Position numbers and translations under genes: made by a program
In this document: positions 44,131 to 55,658 of the stretch, piece after piece
Numbering within the stretch: the stretch's first letter is position 1
Layout: every line of letters starts with the position of its first letter
The notes under the pieces: model-generated
Told to the model about the DNA's origin: nothing
Database searches by the model: none
What the model saw: only the letters and a program-made list of their open reading frames with translations
NCBI GenBank assembly: GCA_025056735.1
Contig: JANWVR010000115.1
Location: 1-55,658, forward strand
Reading direction: 5' to 3'
Length of the DNA stretch: 55,658 nucleotides
Source of the DNA: Saprospiraceae bacterium
Lineage (GTDB): Bacteria > Bacteroidota > Bacteroidia > Chitinophagales > Saprospiraceae

Positions 44131-44146
44131 TGTTTCACGTGGAACA
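44131..44146. promoter_or_regulatory. parS centromere-like site (perfect match)
   Basis: TGTTTCACGTGGAACA is the reverse complement of TGTTCCACGTGAAACA, a classic ParB-binding parS sequence. All 16 positions match the consensus. It lies in the short gap between the OmpA gene and thrC, 31 bp before the thrC ATG. parS sites cluster near the chromosome origin in most bacteria. Confidence 0.85.
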
Positions 44147-44176: not shown

Positions 44177-45484
44177 ATGGAATTATACAGCACGAATAAC
44201 CCACATCTACGCGCCACTTTTCGAGAGGCACTTTTTCAAGGCCTACCACCTGACAACGGCCTTTACATGCCTGCCCAAATACCGCGCATGCCCGAAAAAT
44301 TTCTGAAACAACTGCCCGAATTGCCTTTTGATGAAATTGCTTATGCCATAGCCCTCGCACTGATTGGCGATGAAATCGCGCCAGACGCCTTGAAGGAGAT
44401 TATTCAACAGACAATAACTTTCCCTGCACCCGTAGTCTTATTAGACAATACAACAGGCGTGCTGGAACTCTTTCACGGGCCTTCGTTAGCCTTCAAAGAC
44501 TTTGGCGCTCGCTTCATGGCACAGGTTATGGCGCACTTTAACCCCGAAGGCGAACGCGACCTGGTCATTTTAGTGGCCACTTCGGGTGATACCGGTGGCG
44601 CTGTGGCGGCAGGTTTTTATCAAACCCCTGGTATTCGCGTTGTCATTCTGTACCCTTCGGGCAAGGTCAGCCCTCTTCAGGAAAAACAACTGACAGCATT
44701 AGGAAAAAATATTGCGGCCATTGAAGTGGACGGCACGTTCGACGACTGCCAGGCATTGGTAAAAAGGGCCTTTCTGGATGAAATGCTTCGCGAAAAATTG
44801 CGCCTGAGCTCTGCCAATAGCATCAACATCGCGCGCCTATTACCGCAGATTTTTTATTATTGGGAAGCCTACAAACAGGTACAACACTTCAAGCGCCCGG
44901 TAATCTTTTCGGTGCCTTCGGGCAACTTTGGCAACCTGACAGCCGGGCTTATTGCCCAGCAGATGGGGCTGCCTGCGTACCACTTCATTGCAGCTACCAA
45001 CATCAACGACACCGTGCCGGCATACTTAGCGCAAGGCCGCTTTGAGCCAAAGCCTTCCGTGCGTACGCTCTCAAACGCCATGGATGTGGGCAATCCCTCC
45101 AACTTCGCCCGGATGCTGCATTTGTATGGTTCCACGTGGAACATCATGCGGACACACGTCTCCGGTTTTGCCTTCGACGATGCGCAAACACGCGCCGCTA
45201 TGCGAAAAGTTTATGCCGCACATCAATACGTGCTCGACCCACATACCGCTATCGGCTATTTAGCCTGGAAGACCTATCAAGAACAATCGAACAGCGAAGC
45301 CTTTGGCATCGTATTAGGCACGGCCCACCCTGCTAAGTTTCAGGAAGACGTCTCAGAAATCCTGCAAACAGAGATACCGCTTCCGCCTGCCCTGACGCAA
45401 CTGATGGACAAGCCCAAGCGCGCCATTTTCATGCCCGCGCACTACGAGTCATTTCGAGAATGGCTTTTGAGCGCGTGTCCATAA
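44177..45484 (+). CDS. thrC: Threonine synthase
   Basis: A 435-residue PLP enzyme converting O-phosphohomoserine to threonine. The PLP lysine is K107 in GPSLAFKDFGARFM; ATSGDTGGAVAAGF and the SANSINIARLLPQ motif are typical, as is GNFGNLTAGLIA. The N-terminal LRATFREALFQGLPPDNGLYMP is the standard opening of the longer (class with about 430 residues) form. No other thr genes are adjacent. The 5' gap holds a parS site, and a second parS-like palindrome lies inside the gene at 45129-45142. Confidence 0.95.
   Translation: MELYSTNNPHLRATFREALFQGLPPDNGLYMPAQIPRMPEKFLKQLPELPFDEIAYAIALALIGDEIAPDALKEIIQQTITFPAPVVLLDNTTGVLELFHGPSLAFKDFGARFMAQVMAHFNPEGERDLVILVATSGDTGGAVAAGFYQTPGIRVVILYPSGKVSPLQEKQLTALGKNIAAIEVDGTFDDCQALVKRAFLDEMLREKLRLSSANSINIARLLPQIFYYWEAYKQVQHFKRPVIFSVPSGNFGNLTAGLIAQQMGLPAYHFIAATNINDTVPAYLAQGRFEPKPSVRTLSNAMDVGNPSNFARMLHLYGSTWNIMRTHVSGFAFDDAQTRAAMRKVYAAHQYVLDPHTAIGYLAWKTYQEQSNSEAFGIVLGTAHPAKFQEDVSEILQTEIPLPPALTQLMDKPKRAIFMPAHYESFREWLLSACP
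45129..45142. promoter_or_regulatory. Second parS-like site inside thrC
   Basis: GTTCCACGTGGAAC is a perfect 14-bp palindrome containing the parS core GTTnCACGTGnAAC. The flanking 16-mer (45128-45143) differs from the consensus only at its first base (G instead of T). It is about 1.0 kb from the first parS and in coding sequence, as many parS sites are. Confidence 0.65.
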
Positions 45485-46377: not shown

Positions 46378-47508
46378 CTACCCGGTCTTCATTGATAACA
46401 TAGATTTAGGGGCTGCAATTTCCATGCTCGACTTGTGCTGGCTGCTCCAAACTACAGTGTACGTTAAGAAAACAGTAATCCCAAGCAATACAACGGCCCC
46501 CATCTGGTGTAAAATGCCCAATAGAACAGGGATATTTCCCTGACAATTCAGCAGCGTAACAATGCCCAATAGCACCTGCAAAAGTAATGCGCCCGCAAAG
46601 GCTGCGCTGCTCCAACGCAGAAGACGCGTCGAGGCCTGCTTCCAAAACTTGATTACAGCATATAACCCAATGACAGTCAGCAAGTACGCTGTATTTCGAT
46701 GTAAAAATTGAATCAGCGCCGGCATGAATGGGTTGCTGTCGTAGTGCGTAAAGCTGTCCCAATTCCAGTGTGAAGCATCCAGCAAAACAGCCGGCACATA
46801 AACGCCGTGCATATCGGGCCAGGTCGGGAAAAACAATCCCGCCTTGGCGCCAGACATCATAGCCCCCAGAGCAATCTGAAAGAACGCTATACCCAAAAGA
46901 GTATAACTCATTCTTTTCCAACCGATTCTACAACTAAGATCAGGTTTTATAGGGTACGTGGAAAACACAATCCACAGCAAGTAGGAGAAGATAATCAAGG
47001 CCATGCACAGGTGTAGGGTTAGGTTGTACGCATTGACCCAGGGCCGATGGATCAGGCCGCTGGCCACCATAATCCAGCCGAAGAAGCCTTCCAAACCTGC
47101 CAACAAAACGACAACGGTGAGCTGCTGGAGCAGGCGTTTAGAGAGCATGCCTCTTGCCCAGAAAATTCCGAAAGGAATGATGAAAACAAAAAACATCAAC
47201 CTCGCCCAGAGCCGGTGAAAATACTCCCAAAAGTAGATGAACTTGAATTCCGCCATGCTCATCCCTTGATTGATCTTGGCGTATTGTGGTGTGGCTTTGT
47301 ACAGGTTGAAGGCCTCCTCCCAGGCCTGCTCGCTAAGCGGAGGTAAGGTACCGGTTACGACCTCCCAGCGCGTAATGCTCAAACCACTACCGGTGAGGCG
47401 CGTTACCCCGCCGATAACGACCTGGAGAAAAACCATAGCAACGCCGATCCATAACCACACGCGCACAACGCGCGCAACCTGTGTGTTGTCTTTTAACCTT
47501 CCTGACAT
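46378..47508 (-). CDS. Heme A synthase (Cox15/CtaA family)
   Basis: A 376-residue, eight-helix inner-membrane protein that oxidises heme O to heme A for cytochrome aa3-type oxidases. Heme-ligand histidines are seen in FWEYFHRLWARL, YNLTLHLCMALIIF, LIQFLHRNTAYLL and ILHQMGAVVLLG, and the N-terminal IGGVTRLTGSGLSITRW is the family hallmark. The length and the WPDMHGVYVP region match the Cox15-like (eukaryote/alphaproteobacterial) group. No cytochrome oxidase genes are in the window. The 570-bp gap upstream is the candidate replication origin, so transcription would begin inside or at the edge of that region. Confidence 0.93.
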   Translation of the reverse strand: MSGRLKDNTQVARVVRVWLWIGVAMVFLQVVIGGVTRLTGSGLSITRWEVVTGTLPPLSEQAWEEAFNLYKATPQYAKINQGMSMAEFKFIYFWEYFHRLWARLMFFVFIIPFGIFWARGMLSKRLLQQLTVVVLLAGLEGFFGWIMVASGLIHRPWVNAYNLTLHLCMALIIFSYLLWIVFSTYPIKPDLSCRIGWKRMSYTLLGIAFFQIALGAMMSGAKAGLFFPTWPDMHGVYVPAVLLDASHWNWDSFTHYDSNPFMPALIQFLHRNTAYLLTVIGLYAVIKFWKQASTRLLRWSSAAFAGALLLQVLLGIVTLLNCQGNIPVLLGILHQMGAVVLLGITVFLTYTVVWSSQHKSSMEIAAPKSMLSMKTG

Positions 47509-48078
47509 GTTGACTAAACGATTGTACTATGTAGAAATGCTTCGGATGATAATTCTGAAACTATAAAGGCACGGAGTTTTTTTCACGAAGATATCGGGAT
47601 ACTCCCTCGCGATACACAAACTTTGGCTTAAAGCAGTGACGCAATTTTAGGAATATGAGAAACACGTGGACCTGCCGTTTAGATGCAGCGCCTTTCCACA
47701 CGTTGACTCTTTATAGGTGATTTTTTATTTTTTTTAAATTAAAAAATCCACCTCCTTTCATCAGGGCTGTGCATTTGTGGATTACGGCATAACAGAAAAA
47801 GGCATAGGGGTTTTCACCGCCTCTTGTCATAGTTGTACACATGCGAATGGGTTAACATTAGCTTAATATACAGAGACTTTTGCAGGTATCCACATACCTG
47901 TGTAAAAACGGGCAGCGCTTCCTGTGAGTCTTTTTCTTTGCCGATGTTGTGTGGGGATTGAGAATCAAACGGCGGAAATTTTTTGGGCTGATGGGGAAAA
48001 TGCGCCCGAGCGATAGCCGATATCATCCTTGTGTGGGAAAGGCCCCAGTAGTGCCCCCTTTTTTCCACATTCTTTGGT
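47509..48078. other. Candidate chromosomal replication origin (oriC)
   Basis: A 570-bp stretch without a convincing gene. It has a run of 28 consecutive A/T bases at 47720-47747, a likely unwinding element within an imperfect inverted repeat (47716-47752). Five 9-mers differ by one base from the DnaA box TTATnCACA: 47776-47784 (-), 47833-47841 (+), 47886-47894 (+), 47899-47907 (-) and 48061-48069 (+). One of these sits in a palindrome, CAGGTAT-CCAC-ATACCTG (47883-47900). Two parS sites lie 2.5-4 kb away. This combination is that of an origin; dnaA is not adjacent, which is normal for many Bacteroidota. Confidence 0.5.
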
Positions 48079-50238
48079 TTAAATAAATAGGTTATAGACA
48101 ACCCAGGCGCCGGCATAAGCCAGCAGCGTCATGAAAGCAAACTGTAGCAGCGGCCATTTCCAGGAACCTGTCTCGCGACGCACGACGGCTAAAGTGCTGG
48201 CGCATTGCATGGCTAAGGCGTAGAATACTAACAGAGAGAGGGCTGTGGCTAAGGTGTAAACGGGCTTACCGGTGTCTATGAATTTTTCGTCCCGCATGCG
48301 TTGGCGGAGGGTGGCTTTTGTCGGGTTCTCGGCAGCATCGGTGATGTCTGCCTCAGCATCGCCCAGCTGGTACAGGACGGCCAGCGTGCCGGCAAAGACT
48401 TCGCGGGCCGCAAACGAGGTGAACAGGGCTATGCCGATTTTCCAGTCGTATCCTAAAGGACGGATGACAGGCTCGAAGGCCTTGCCTATGCGACCAGCGT
48501 AGGAGGCTTCCAACTGATAGGCGGCAATCAGGCTTTCGGTTTCTTCTGGGGAAAGCCTTCGAACTGCGGCTTCTGTGCGGGCCCTGGCTTTGGCTTCATC
48601 CATGCTGCTGCCCGGTCCAAAACTGGCAGAGGCCCACAATACAATAGAGATGATGAGAATGATGCGGCCGGCCTCGAAAACGAATGCCGAGACTTTTTCC
48701 CACACCGTCAGCCATAGATTGCGCCAGTGTGGCATTCGATAGACAGGAAGTTCTAAGGCTAAATAGGAACGCTCGCGGGTGCGCATGATTTTCTTGAGTA
48801 TGTATCCTGTGCTCAATGCGGCGAACACCCCCAGCGCGTACATACTGGCAAACGTGAGGCCTTGTAGCGAAAAAACACCCAGGACTTTTTGCGCCGGCAC
48901 GACCAACCCAATCAGAATAACATACACGGGTATGCGAGCGCTGCAGGTGATGAAAGGCGTTACTAGAATGGTAATTAGCCGTTCTTTCCAATTGCCAATT
49001 GTGCGGCTGCTCATGATGGCCGGCACTGCGCAGGCGCCTCCGCTAATAAGTGAAACAATGCTTCGGCCACCCATGCCAAACCGGCGCATAGACTGATCGA
49101 ACATAAACACCACGCGAGCCATGTAGCCAACTTCTTCCAGCAGGGTGATGAGAAAGAACAAGATGGCAATTTGGGGTACAAAAACTAAAATACCACTCAA
49201 ACCGGTCAGAATGCCGTCGGTCAGTAGTCGGGTGGCCCAGTGCTCAGGCAAGAGCGCCCGGAGCGTATTGCTCAGCCACGCAAACGACGACTCGATGAAA
49301 TCCATCGGAATGGAACTCCAGTCGTAGATGGCCTGAAAAATTAGCAACATGATGAGGCCAAAAATGACTGGCCCAAACCACCGATGCGTCAGTATGGCAT
49401 CAATACGGTCGGTTGTCGTGCTGGGAAAGCGGGGCGGATGCTGAACTGTTGCCTGTACGATGGGCGTGAAACGGTCGTAGCGTTCGAGCGTCTCGTCCAC
49501 CTGGTGTTTCAGAGAATTGAACTGCTTGTCGGAAGTAATGGCGCTTAAGGTTTGGCGCGTCTGTTCCGAAAGGTCTGGAAGCCAGGCGTGGTGATGCGCC
49601 AGCAACAGCGCGCGGTAGGGGTTATCAGCGCCGGCGTTCAGCCGAATGGCTTCCGAGATGTTTTTTTCTTGTTCGTCTAAGGGATAAAAGCCTTCAGAGG
49701 GATGGCGATGTTCCTGCAGTAACTTTTCTATTTCCAACAGGAGTTTAGAGAGGTTTTCTCCAGTCCGGCTGCTGATTAAGACCACCGGGACTCCTAATTT
49801 TTCGGCAAGCTTTGCGGTGTTCACCTTTAGGCCGATGGCCTCTGCGGCGTCGGCCATGTTGAGCGCCAGCAGAATAGGAAGGCGCAGATCGAGCAGTTGA
49901 GTAAGCAGCAGCAGGTGCTTCTCTAAGTGAGTAACATCAGCGACGTACACCACCGCGTCCGGATGATGCGGGTCGGAAGGGTTGCTAAAAACGGCAGCTA
50001 CAATTCGCTCATCTGCAGACGTAGGATAGAGACTATAAGCGCCGGGTAAATCAGTCAGTTCGACCTCCTGACCGTCGGGCAGTCGAAAGCGCCCTGTTTT
50101 TATGTCAACGGTAACACCTGGAAAATTGCCGGTCTTTTGCCTTAAGCCCGTCAACAAGTTGAACAGCGTGGATTTGCCGCTGTTCGGATTGCCTACCAAG
50201 GCGATTTTGGGCGTGCGCGTCGCCTGCATTGCCGTCAT
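48079..50238 (-). CDS. feoB: Ferrous iron transport protein B
   Basis: A 719-residue Fe(II) permease. The N-terminal G domain has G1 at GNPNSGKST (16-24), G3 DLPGAYS and G4 NMAD, followed by a helical regulatory domain. The C-terminal membrane core has two Gate motifs with the conserved cysteines (SGGACAVPAIMSSRT and TCSARIPVYVILIG) and FAAREVFAGTLAVLYQLGD. The ATG at 50238 overlaps the feoA stop in ATGA, so the genes are translationally coupled. Uptake of Fe(II) under low-oxygen or reducing conditions is the expected role. Confidence 0.96.
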   Translation of the reverse strand: MTAMQATRTPKIALVGNPNSGKSTLFNLLTGLRQKTGNFPGVTVDIKTGRFRLPDGQEVELTDLPGAYSLYPTSADERIVAAVFSNPSDPHHPDAVVYVADVTHLEKHLLLLTQLLDLRLPILLALNMADAAEAIGLKVNTAKLAEKLGVPVVLISSRTGENLSKLLLEIEKLLQEHRHPSEGFYPLDEQEKNISEAIRLNAGADNPYRALLLAHHHAWLPDLSEQTRQTLSAITSDKQFNSLKHQVDETLERYDRFTPIVQATVQHPPRFPSTTTDRIDAILTHRWFGPVIFGLIMLLIFQAIYDWSSIPMDFIESSFAWLSNTLRALLPEHWATRLLTDGILTGLSGILVFVPQIAILFFLITLLEEVGYMARVVFMFDQSMRRFGMGGRSIVSLISGGACAVPAIMSSRTIGNWKERLITILVTPFITCSARIPVYVILIGLVVPAQKVLGVFSLQGLTFASMYALGVFAALSTGYILKKIMRTRERSYLALELPVYRMPHWRNLWLTVWEKVSAFVFEAGRIILIISIVLWASASFGPGSSMDEAKARARTEAAVRRLSPEETESLIAAYQLEASYAGRIGKAFEPVIRPLGYDWKIGIALFTSFAAREVFAGTLAVLYQLGDAEADITDAAENPTKATLRQRMRDEKFIDTGKPVYTLATALSLLVFYALAMQCASTLAVVRRETGSWKWPLLQFAFMTLLAYAGAWVVYNLFI

Positions 50239-53954: not shown

Positions 53955-54124
53955 TGGCTCATGTTCCCGGGTGACTGGTTATCCGTGCAAAAAACCTGAA
54001 AATCAAGAGCTGGTTTTCATAGCTCAGCCGATAAGGAAGATGAGCCATAGGAGAATCTACTATAGGTAACCGTCATCTTTTGAAAGGCAAAATTACATGG
54101 TTAGCAGAAAAGGAAGATGAGCCA
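53955..54124. mobile_element. Cluster of IS1595-like terminal repeats, possible MITE
   Basis: TGGCTCATGTTCC at 53955-53967 faces GGAAGATGAGCCA at 54035-54047, giving a 93-bp unit with inverted ends that agree at 12 of 13 positions. A second AAGGAAGATGAGCCA lies at 54110-54124. No matching 8-bp target duplications were found. This fills most of the 53826-54163 gap, and no gene was seen in it. Confidence 0.55.
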
Positions 54125-54163
54125 AATCTTTTACGAGCCATTGTCTTTGAGAACTATTGTTAT

Positions 54164-54883
54164 TCATTCGTATAAAAATCTGAAATTCGACGCCTGCGAA
54201 GGTGATACCAACAGAATTCTGTCAAATTGAGACTTTATCTTTGGAAGGTCGTAAAACTGTTCGGCATCTAAATCTACTAGTCCGTATCCGACATAATCTA
54301 CAACAGCAAGCCACCATTCTGGATATTTCGACTTGTAGTTTTTTACCTTACTTTCTTTTTCTGCTACTATCAGTTTTAAATTATTGTAAATTAAACCCAC
54401 AACTGGTCCGACAGAATCATAGTCGAGGCTCATTCCATATTCATACTGATTTTTTAATTTTTTAGCCGAAGGTATAATTATGATTTTAAAATTATCTGTT
54501 ATTTTGTATTCCCTATACTCGTTTATAGCGGATTTATGGTTTTCGAGAATTTTAGAGAATTGTTTTTTTATCTCTTTTTTATCTGGCAAGGGTCTGCCGA
54601 AAAAATATCCGACAAATGCACTTTTATTAAAAGTCTTGTCCGAAACTTCCTCTATTATTTTCTTTAGGAGTCCATGGACTATATATTCATCTTGTTCAAG
54701 GCCTTCGAATTTGTCCCCTGATACTTGATTTTGATTAAGCCTTCTTACCTCAATCGCAATATTGTTGTTCAGTAAAATATCTGGCGGGATGTTTCCGTCT
54801 GGCTGATAACTTATTTTGTCATAGCCCTGTATCTGAAGGCAATCAATTATTATTCTTTCTTCTCTCTTGGGTGTATTTTTCAT
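54164..54883 (-). CDS. AT-rich orphan gene, possible PD-(D/E)xK nuclease
   Basis: A 239-residue, lysine-rich, non-membrane protein. Its GC content looks near one third, far below the rest of the window, and its codons are strongly AT-ending. PPDILLNNNIAIEVRRLNQN (residues about 33-52) fits a PD-x-E-x-R variant of the PD-(D/E)xK core, and YPEWWLAVVDYVGYGL plus FDRILLV recur in small orphan nucleases. I chose ATG 54883 over a TTG at 54946, because TAACTTTG (54914-54921) is a good -7 box just upstream. It lies between two IS1595-type ends, so it is probably acquired. Function is inferred, not shown; no methylase or other partner is next to it. Confidence 0.78.
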   Translation of the reverse strand: MKNTPKREERIIIDCLQIQGYDKISYQPDGNIPPDILLNNNIAIEVRRLNQNQVSGDKFEGLEQDEYIVHGLLKKIIEEVSDKTFNKSAFVGYFFGRPLPDKKEIKKQFSKILENHKSAINEYREYKITDNFKIIIIPSAKKLKNQYEYGMSLDYDSVGPVVGLIYNNLKLIVAEKESKVKNYKSKYPEWWLAVVDYVGYGLVDLDAEQFYDLPKIKSQFDRILLVSPSQASNFRFLYE

Positions 54884-54913
54884 TTTTTTGAGATGGTCAT
54901 AAAAATCCGGGCG

Positions 54914-54921
54914 CAAAGTTA
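54914..54921 (-). promoter_or_regulatory. Candidate -7 promoter box of the AT-rich gene
   Basis: TAACTTTG on the minus strand matches TAnnTTTG, 30 bp before ATG 54883; a TTTG about 22 nt further upstream could be the -33 element. Confidence 0.5.
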
Positions 54922-55046
54922 AATTAGAAAAGATATTTTTGCTCAAATTTCATTGGACTCGCAGACCCGAGCGCCAAATGTCTCCGTTTGCGATTATAAT
55001 AAGTATCGACATATTGGAAAACTTCTATTTGAGTGTTCTCCATCGT

Positions 55047-55140
55047 TAGCTCACATTCCTGTTTGGCTGAAGACCAAGGTTTGAATAAATCTTACTGTTA
55101 TCCGCTTCAGGTTGTGCATCCACCAAACATGGCCACGTAA
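55047..55140. repeat. 94-bp direct repeat, second copy (IS end)
   Basis: Second copy of the sequence at 53856-53949, same orientation, here continuous with the transposase region. Outer end TAGCTCACATTCC. It marks the left end of the IS1595-type element that runs off the window. Confidence 0.85.
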
Positions 55141-55658
55141 AGATGTAGGTAGTGCTTGTTCATGACTTTAAAAGGCCTCAAAAAGTTATGCACTTCTGTC
55201 CACAAGCCTTCGATAGTATTCGTATGCACTTCGTTAATACTATCGCCATCCTCATCCCGCGCCCATTCGTGGACGCCATGGCAGACCGTCTTATGCTCTC
55301 TTGTTGGCGTGCCTACGGGCCATAGGCCGAATTCTCGTCGCTGTAGCAGACGCCTATTTGCGCACAACGCAGGTTTATGGAGGCTTCCACTTCTCCCTTA
55401 CACGTGTTGTGCAACACCTCCAACCTCACCTGCCTGCTTTGGTGTCCTACAGTGCCCAAAATGGGTGGGCGATCCGTCTGCCAGATGCCCTGTCCTTTTT
55501 TTATTGGCACGTCGCCGAGGCGGATCGTCCTTATCCGCATGCACAATGCCCTTTTCGCCAGCATTTTGGTACATCTCATCGCTTTCCACCTCTACATCCG
55601 GCAAAGCGTCCTGCTCTCGATGCTCGTAAGCGTGCTGCATTAGCCTATGTCGCAAGTA
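55107..55658 (-). pseudogene. IS1595-family (ISXO2-like) transposase, frameshifted and cut by window edge
   Basis: Three minus-strand frames together spell an ISXO2-like DDE transposase: VEVESDEMYQNAGEKG and DDPPRRRANKK (about 55510-55655), GIWQTDRPPILGTVG to SDENSAYGP (about 55320-55500), and HEWARDEDGDSINEVHTNT to NFLRPFKVMNKHYLHLYVAMF (55107-55325). The first shift falls at a run of seven A (plus-strand T, 55496-55502); the second near 55325. The order of motifs is correct, so the gene was once intact. The N-terminal zinc-finger region lies beyond the window edge. Probably inactive unless the A-run is bypassed by slippage; the second shift argues against that. Confidence 0.85.

Follow-up and report, generated by a model that had tools for sequence, protein, structure and literature searches.

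A probable chromosomal replication origin between cox15 and feoB in a Saprospiraceae bacterium, with a DnaA-trio-like core conserved beside cox15

The cox15–feoB intergenic region

The window analyzed here, 55,658 bp, is the whole of contig C41 in the draft genome of a Saprospiraceae bacterium (3.74 Mb in 152 contigs). Nucleotides 47509–48078 are exactly the gap separating cox15 from feoB and are crossed, in the ORF list, by a mechanical 100-residue ORF (47814–48116). The Cox15 protein is 89, 81 and 72% identical to those of its nearest named relatives, all Saprospiraceae bins, and most of the 80 Cox15 records found likewise come from Saprospiraceae bins, mostly fragmentary metagenome bins. 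The genes and elements at the locus are as follows, with the strand given where one applies.

46378–47508, minus strand: cox15/ctaA (PF02628), the neighbor that stays constant across the Saprospiraceae loci examined
47509–48078: candidate oriC region, intergenic between cox15 and feoB, marked by the box cluster, the sole reported matches of the core models R1 and R2, the skew switch and conservation
47720–47747: 28-nt pure A/T tract (100% A/T; window 46% A/T), candidate duplex-unwinding element
47776–47784, minus strand: DnaA box D, TAATCCACA, one mismatch, in register in 23/30 species
47833–47841, plus strand: DnaA box C, TTGTACACA, in register in 25/30 species
47883–47900: palindrome CAGGTAT-CCAC-ATACCTG with 7-bp arms around box B, read from the sequence
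47886–47894, plus strand: DnaA box B, GTATCCACA, within the palindrome, in register in 23/30 species
47899–47907, minus strand: DnaA box B', TTTTACACA, in the opposite orientation to B, with weak conservation (9/30 species)
48061–48069, plus strand: DnaA box A, TTTTCCACA, distal, in register in 27/30 species
48079–50238, minus strand: feoB (FeoB_N, Gate and FeoB_C), the far-side neighbor in this genome and in four close relatives

Five 9-mers in the gap lie within one mismatch of TTATNCACA, at 47776 (−), 47833 (+), 47886 (+), 47899 (−) and 48061 (+), and together span 294 bp; none of the five is an exact TTATNCACA box. Two further box-like 9-mers occur just within feoB, at 48092 and 48244. Box D adjoins the candidate unwinding element and is oriented towards the A/T tract, just as the boxes of B. 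subtilis read towards their trios, and boxes A, B and C are oriented away from it. The original prediction, which had described five box-like 9-mers in these 570 bp, a 28-nt pure A/T run beside them, one box inside a palindrome with 7-bp arms and two parS sites within 4 kb, is confirmed in each of these elements (the parS sites, one exact and one with a single mismatch, are described below). Its estimate that chance would give about 0.4 such 9-mers fared less well: the cluster is real, but that figure overstates how exceptional it is. When the window was simulated 200 times with a first-order Markov model, the densest 570 bp held five boxes in 4 runs and never more, and the densest 570 bp of the real window holds seven, including the two within feoB. 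As the window as a whole contains 31 box-like matches versus 31.7 expected from shuffling, it is the clustering and not the total count that is informative. The five-box cluster by itself is modest (P of about 0.02 for a window of such size), and the simulated windows with at least five boxes per 570 bp, together with the lack of an exact box, are what would speak for a chance cluster of DnaA-like 9-mers.

Conservation of the boxes and the core beside cox15

Direct DNA similarity to the 570 bp was detected in 3 of 59 relatives only (G035, G002 and a 27-nt match in G055), and because it reached so few of them the Cox15 protein was needed as an anchor. Every one of the 30 genus loci, the focal locus among them, has 4–10 boxes in the 650 bp directly upstream of cox15, and four of the five focal boxes are kept in register (≤1 mismatch) in 23–27 of 30 species, again counting the focal one, so that the prediction of conserved boxes holds for four of the five. 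Random columns of the same alignment gave a median of 0, a 95th percentile of about 5 and a maximum of 23, a value that may stem from draws landing on the boxes themselves. An exact DnaA box is absent from 5 of the 30 genus loci, and its lack in the focal species is thus not special to its clade.

A conserved core includes box D, where three nested features are read on the cox15 strand:

47754–47786, minus strand: conserved origin core (box, 11-nt spacer, trio motif), matrix score 39.6
47765–47775, minus strand: 11-nt spacer AATGCACAGCC, GC-rich at one end and containing a second, degenerate box (AATGCACA), from the consensus of alignments A2 and A3
47756–47764, minus strand: DnaA-trio-like motif CTG ATG AAA (other strand 3'-GAC TAC TTT-5'), read from the sequence

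In the genus consensus, the cox15 strand carries the box, the 11-nt spacer with its degenerate second box and GC-rich end, 5'-CTGATGATG-3' and then A/T-rich DNA; the general form of the core is box, 11-nt spacer, 5'-CTR-ATR-ATR-3' and A/T-rich DNA. The A/T-rich stretch comes after the trio motif in the family alignment too, and the tract at 47720–47747 is the probable duplex-unwinding element of the focal genome. In 27 of 30 genus rows all three trios keep the central T of the upper strand (adenine on the lower); the focal species and its near relatives G002 and G011 have lost one trio. Three central T are also found in 48 of 50 rows from the further loci introduced below, rows that were chosen by a matrix favoring those very bases, which leaves the genus rows, aligned without the matrix, as the fair count; for the further loci, 47 of the 48 with a core is the fairer figure, because one of the 48 (L225) is without a convincing core.

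The core occurs once in the focal genome. In the window, the next-best matrix site scores below zero. The core sequence model R1 (128 positions) gave a single match in the 3.74-Mb draft at E ≤ 10, with 150 of 492 first-look candidates scored, and R2, built from 65 rows with the focal sequence excluded, gave a single match at E ≤ 0.01, located at the origin site (E = 6.1e-11). Strong R1 matches (E ≤ 1.8e-6) adjoin cox15 in 32 of 36 genus relatives; of these 32, 29 had supplied training rows for R1 and three (G013, G015 and G028) had not. A strong match is missing in the other four: cox15 was not found in G003, G004 and G036, and G031 has only a contig-end fragment of the gene. Four boxes in register in 23–27 of 30 species and a 128-position core at the same place in 32 of 36 relatives refute the chance cluster, whose remaining probability is negligible.

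The arrangement extends beyond the genus. At 50 further loci (L176–L225, up to 21 kb each), mostly from other Saprospiraceae, the best core match lies 77–375 bp before cox15 and on the same strand in 48, the two best matches in other positions being those of L218 and L225; one of the 50, L183, is genome G016, which was in the training set, and L182, L186 and L211 score like members of the genus. At the earlier loci L146–L175 the core precedes cox15 in 28 of 30, and the two without it, L157 and L171, hold merely 145 and 91 bp of upstream sequence. Matrix scores reach 18.0 in 59 control stretches (up to 20 kb), more than many of the other Saprospiraceae attain; the claim for the family therefore rests on position and strand, the score by itself being nonspecific. 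On the far side the neighbor of the origin varies among relatives: feoB is directly adjacent in the focal genome, G035, G002, G011 and G019 (about 1.5 kb examined), and in G022 its end lies about 1.4 kb from the origin.

These data also bear on two readings in which the site is functional without being the chromosomal origin. An origin belonging to a mobile element, such as an integrated plasmid, is very improbable: the flanks are housekeeping genes (cox15, feoAB and threonine synthase), the core has a single match in the genome and, of the 50 further loci, 48 have it beside cox15, against which nothing specific can be set beyond a contig end (about 54–55.6 kb) of low G+C whose ORFs look mobile-element-like by eye. 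If the true origin were elsewhere, the array could instead be a DnaA-controlled promoter or a datA-like site of DnaA titration, which would fit the conserved position: in nearly all Saprospiraceae loci examined it stands just upstream of cox15, where a regulatory site would be. DnaA boxes are known at titration and promoter sites too.

GC skew and parS sites around the locus

The cumulative GC-skew minimum of the window falls at nt 47,762, inside the core. Skew across the site was compared in the focal genome (7.6 kb on the far side) and in 17 relatives preselected for long contigs, with up to 20 kb per side. From the cox15 side to the feoB side, raw skew rises in 18 of 18 genus genomes and gene-strand-corrected third-position skew in 17 (G005 being the exception), corrected AT skew falls in 15, and the pooled 2-kb profile is V-shaped around the site. 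The 18 genomes do not amount to 18 independent results, because the species are related (G007 and G009, and G027 and G034, closely so), and the change is only weak in G005, G012, G019 and G021. Taken singly, the 17 relatives have their cumulative minimum within the flanks 0.9–13.4 kb off the site, in 16 of them away from cox15. At the further cox15 loci, skew rises in 25 of the 27 with enough flank, and corrected skew in 23 of the 24 for which it was computable. The skew minimum expected at this site is thus seen in its local form.

Farther out the signal fades, samples taken tens to hundreds of kilobases away in G007, G009, G012 and G034 being mixed; beyond 100 kb those of G012 and G034 are near zero, or of the wrong sign at 380 kb in G012. 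Sampling of G007 contig C1 (20 kb every 190 kb) and G009 contig C2 (every ~76 kb) was noisy and gave no clean genome-wide V at such coarse spacing, at which the gene-strand correction was of little help; short flanks pooled across species were clearer. In G007 C1, a second change of corrected skew from negative to positive appears at ~0.2–0.4 Mb, far from the cox15 locus, which could be noise, rearrangement or an assembly error.

The dnaA gene offers a different picture. It is on contig C100, and is thus not adjacent to the origin site on C41 in the focal draft, and in the relative G007 it lies 1.93 Mb from the cox15 locus, consistent with the premise of the original prediction that Bacteroidota origins are often not next to dnaA; the same is in print, PMC4755523 describing oriC in Bacteroidetes as commonly far from dnaA. 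The same skew test applied at dnaA gave a rise in 5 of 10 genomes, both raw and corrected (some flanks being short), and the dnaA flanks of the 10 genomes contained no parS site and no cluster exceeding five boxes.

Two parS sites lie on the cox15 side of the focal origin:

44131–44146: parS, exact, the sole exact one in the draft, 3.4 kb from the origin
45128–45143: parS-like site, one mismatch, within the threonine synthase gene, 2.4 kb from the origin

The exact sequence TGTTNCACGTGNAACA occurs once in the focal draft, and the reversed control pattern does not occur in it; two or more parS sites were found in 5 of 100 shuffles given the same search of the window. A parS-like site (≤1 mismatch) lies within 15 kb of the origin, on either side, in 17 of 18 genomes; in G018 the stretch examined has none within 15 kb and an exact one ~20 kb away. 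In several close relatives a parS-like site recurs at the matching distance of ~2.4 kb from the origin, and the threonine synthase codons at 45128–45143 may be held in place also by ParB binding.

A promoter or titration site would leave the local skew switch, the clustering of parS sites and the arrangement of box, spacer, trio motif and A/T tract unexplained. In four genomes from other families (G043, G045, G056 and G059), moreover, a weak core match (E 9e-5 to 0.037) and an exact parS lie 1.2–10.5 kb apart, and cox15 is on a different contig. Because core and parS share these contigs, the comparison suggests that the core follows the origin and not the cox15 gene, and we consider the promoter or titration reading unlikely, if somewhat less so than the mobile element. 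Conservation, the local skew switch, the single core and the parS sites support instead the placement of the real origin between cox15 and feoB, and we conclude, with a probability of roughly 0.95, that 47509–48078 is the chromosomal oriC of this Saprospiraceae bacterium.

Unwinding at the core and comparison with known origins

From the elements, their conservation, the single core copy, the local skew switch and the proximity of parS, all directly observed, we infer DnaA binding, strand opening and initiation at this origin. DnaA would bind boxes A, B and C as well as box D, which has the opposite orientation and lies, with its degenerate tandem partner, beside the tract. From box D a DnaA oligomer would extend over the 11-nt spacer onto the single-stranded trio-like motif and open the 28-bp A/T tract, where helicase would be loaded and from which forks would depart both ways. 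ParB and its partners, acting via parS at 2.4 and 3.4 kb, would then separate the new origins.

This scheme resembles the basal unwinding system (BUS), defined in PMC8287927 and PMC6669920 as DnaA-box, spacer and DnaA-trios, with a rule (PMC8287927) of a box with ≤2 mismatches, a spacer of 0–16 bp peaking at 10–13 and at least three lower-strand 3'-NAN-5' triplets. The focal locus shares with the BUS, as described there, the box, the 11-nt spacer, the GC-rich end and lower-strand triplets with a central adenine, followed by A/T-rich DNA, whereas the triplets of the genus are mostly 3'-GA[C/T] TA[C/T] TA[C/T]-5' and not repeated 3'-GAT-5'. The upper strand of the canonical triplet reads 5'-CTA-3', and a 3'-GAC-5' trio occurs naturally in H. 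pylori (PMC8235120). By the BUS rule, TAATCCACA with its one mismatch qualifies as a box and 11 nt as a spacer, and the focal motif CTG ATG AAA, which keeps the central A in two of its three trios, provides two triplets of the at least three. We conclude that the focal core would work like a BUS though it falls outside strict membership.

A trio-code reading of the core describes a module of two boxes ~8 nt apart, 5'-CTR-ATR-ATR-3' with a nearly invariant central T, and then A/T-rich DNA. It is conceivable, though we advance it only tentatively, that such an unwinding module, with a fixed trio code of its own, is common to the Saprospiraceae and perhaps to much of the class, and that the focal species, G002 and G011 have lost one of its trios. 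If so, the DnaA of these three would have changed its single-strand preference or would need fewer than the three trios thought minimal. The trio variants of the core also form a natural set on which the triplet requirements of DnaA could be examined.

As for origins at large, the focal one has the features of an oriC as predicted by Ori-Finder/DoriC, namely an intergenic box cluster, an A/T-rich tract, a local skew minimum and nearby parS, but it is not beside dnaA and its constant neighbor is cox15. Prevotella intermedia belongs to another order than the Saprospiraceae. The origin of its strain OMA14 (PMC4755523) is likewise from the Bacteroidota, predicted by boxes and a skew transition and not near dnaA. 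Among the literature matches listed there was no Saprospiraceae origin and no cox15-adjacent origin, and a DoriC prediction may exist; within the literature covered, the kind of system is known, and what is new is the location, the linkage to cox15 across the family and the variant form of the trios. In fragmentary metagenome bins, skew and dnaA adjacency cannot locate the origin. This origin can be found even in such genomes, as nearly all relatives whose cox15 could be examined have it next to that gene, and the cox15-adjacent core would thus be an origin marker usable on single contigs, for example to anchor estimates of replication rate from metagenomes.

Beyond the family, R2 gave matches at E ≤ 0.01, many of them weak, in 44 of the 99 genomes searched for the order and in 12 of the 99 for the phylum, two sets that overlap and both count the focal genome. 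Of 16 matches inspected (focal included), those in G106, G083 and G205 and one of three in G070 are origin-like (6–11 boxes, no ORF), and 7 fall within an ORF. Outside the genus, 13 order genomes have an R1 match at E ≤ 0.1, and in at least 4 of them it lies within 11 kb of an exact parS, among the sites listed, which do not include those of G047. In the complete genome G083 (loci L299, L312 and L313), from another family of the order, the candidate origin core lies not by cox15 but by nadA-like and SurA/PpiD-type isomerase-like genes, read from ORFs by eye; skew changes little there (−0.020 to 0.021), its local minimum lies 5 kb away, and no parS-like site was found closer than one at 11 kb.

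Two minor observations concern the contigs themselves. The end of the window (54001–55658) is low in G+C (0.35 at 54–55 kb) and holds a 260-residue ORF and short overlapping ORFs that, by eye, read like an IS transposase, the three tried against Pfam giving no match. The contig of L182 (JAKLJF010000164.1), filed as a Thermoanaerobaculia MAG, encodes a Cox15 of 67% identity preceded by a genus-typical core (score 47.5) and is probably misbinned.
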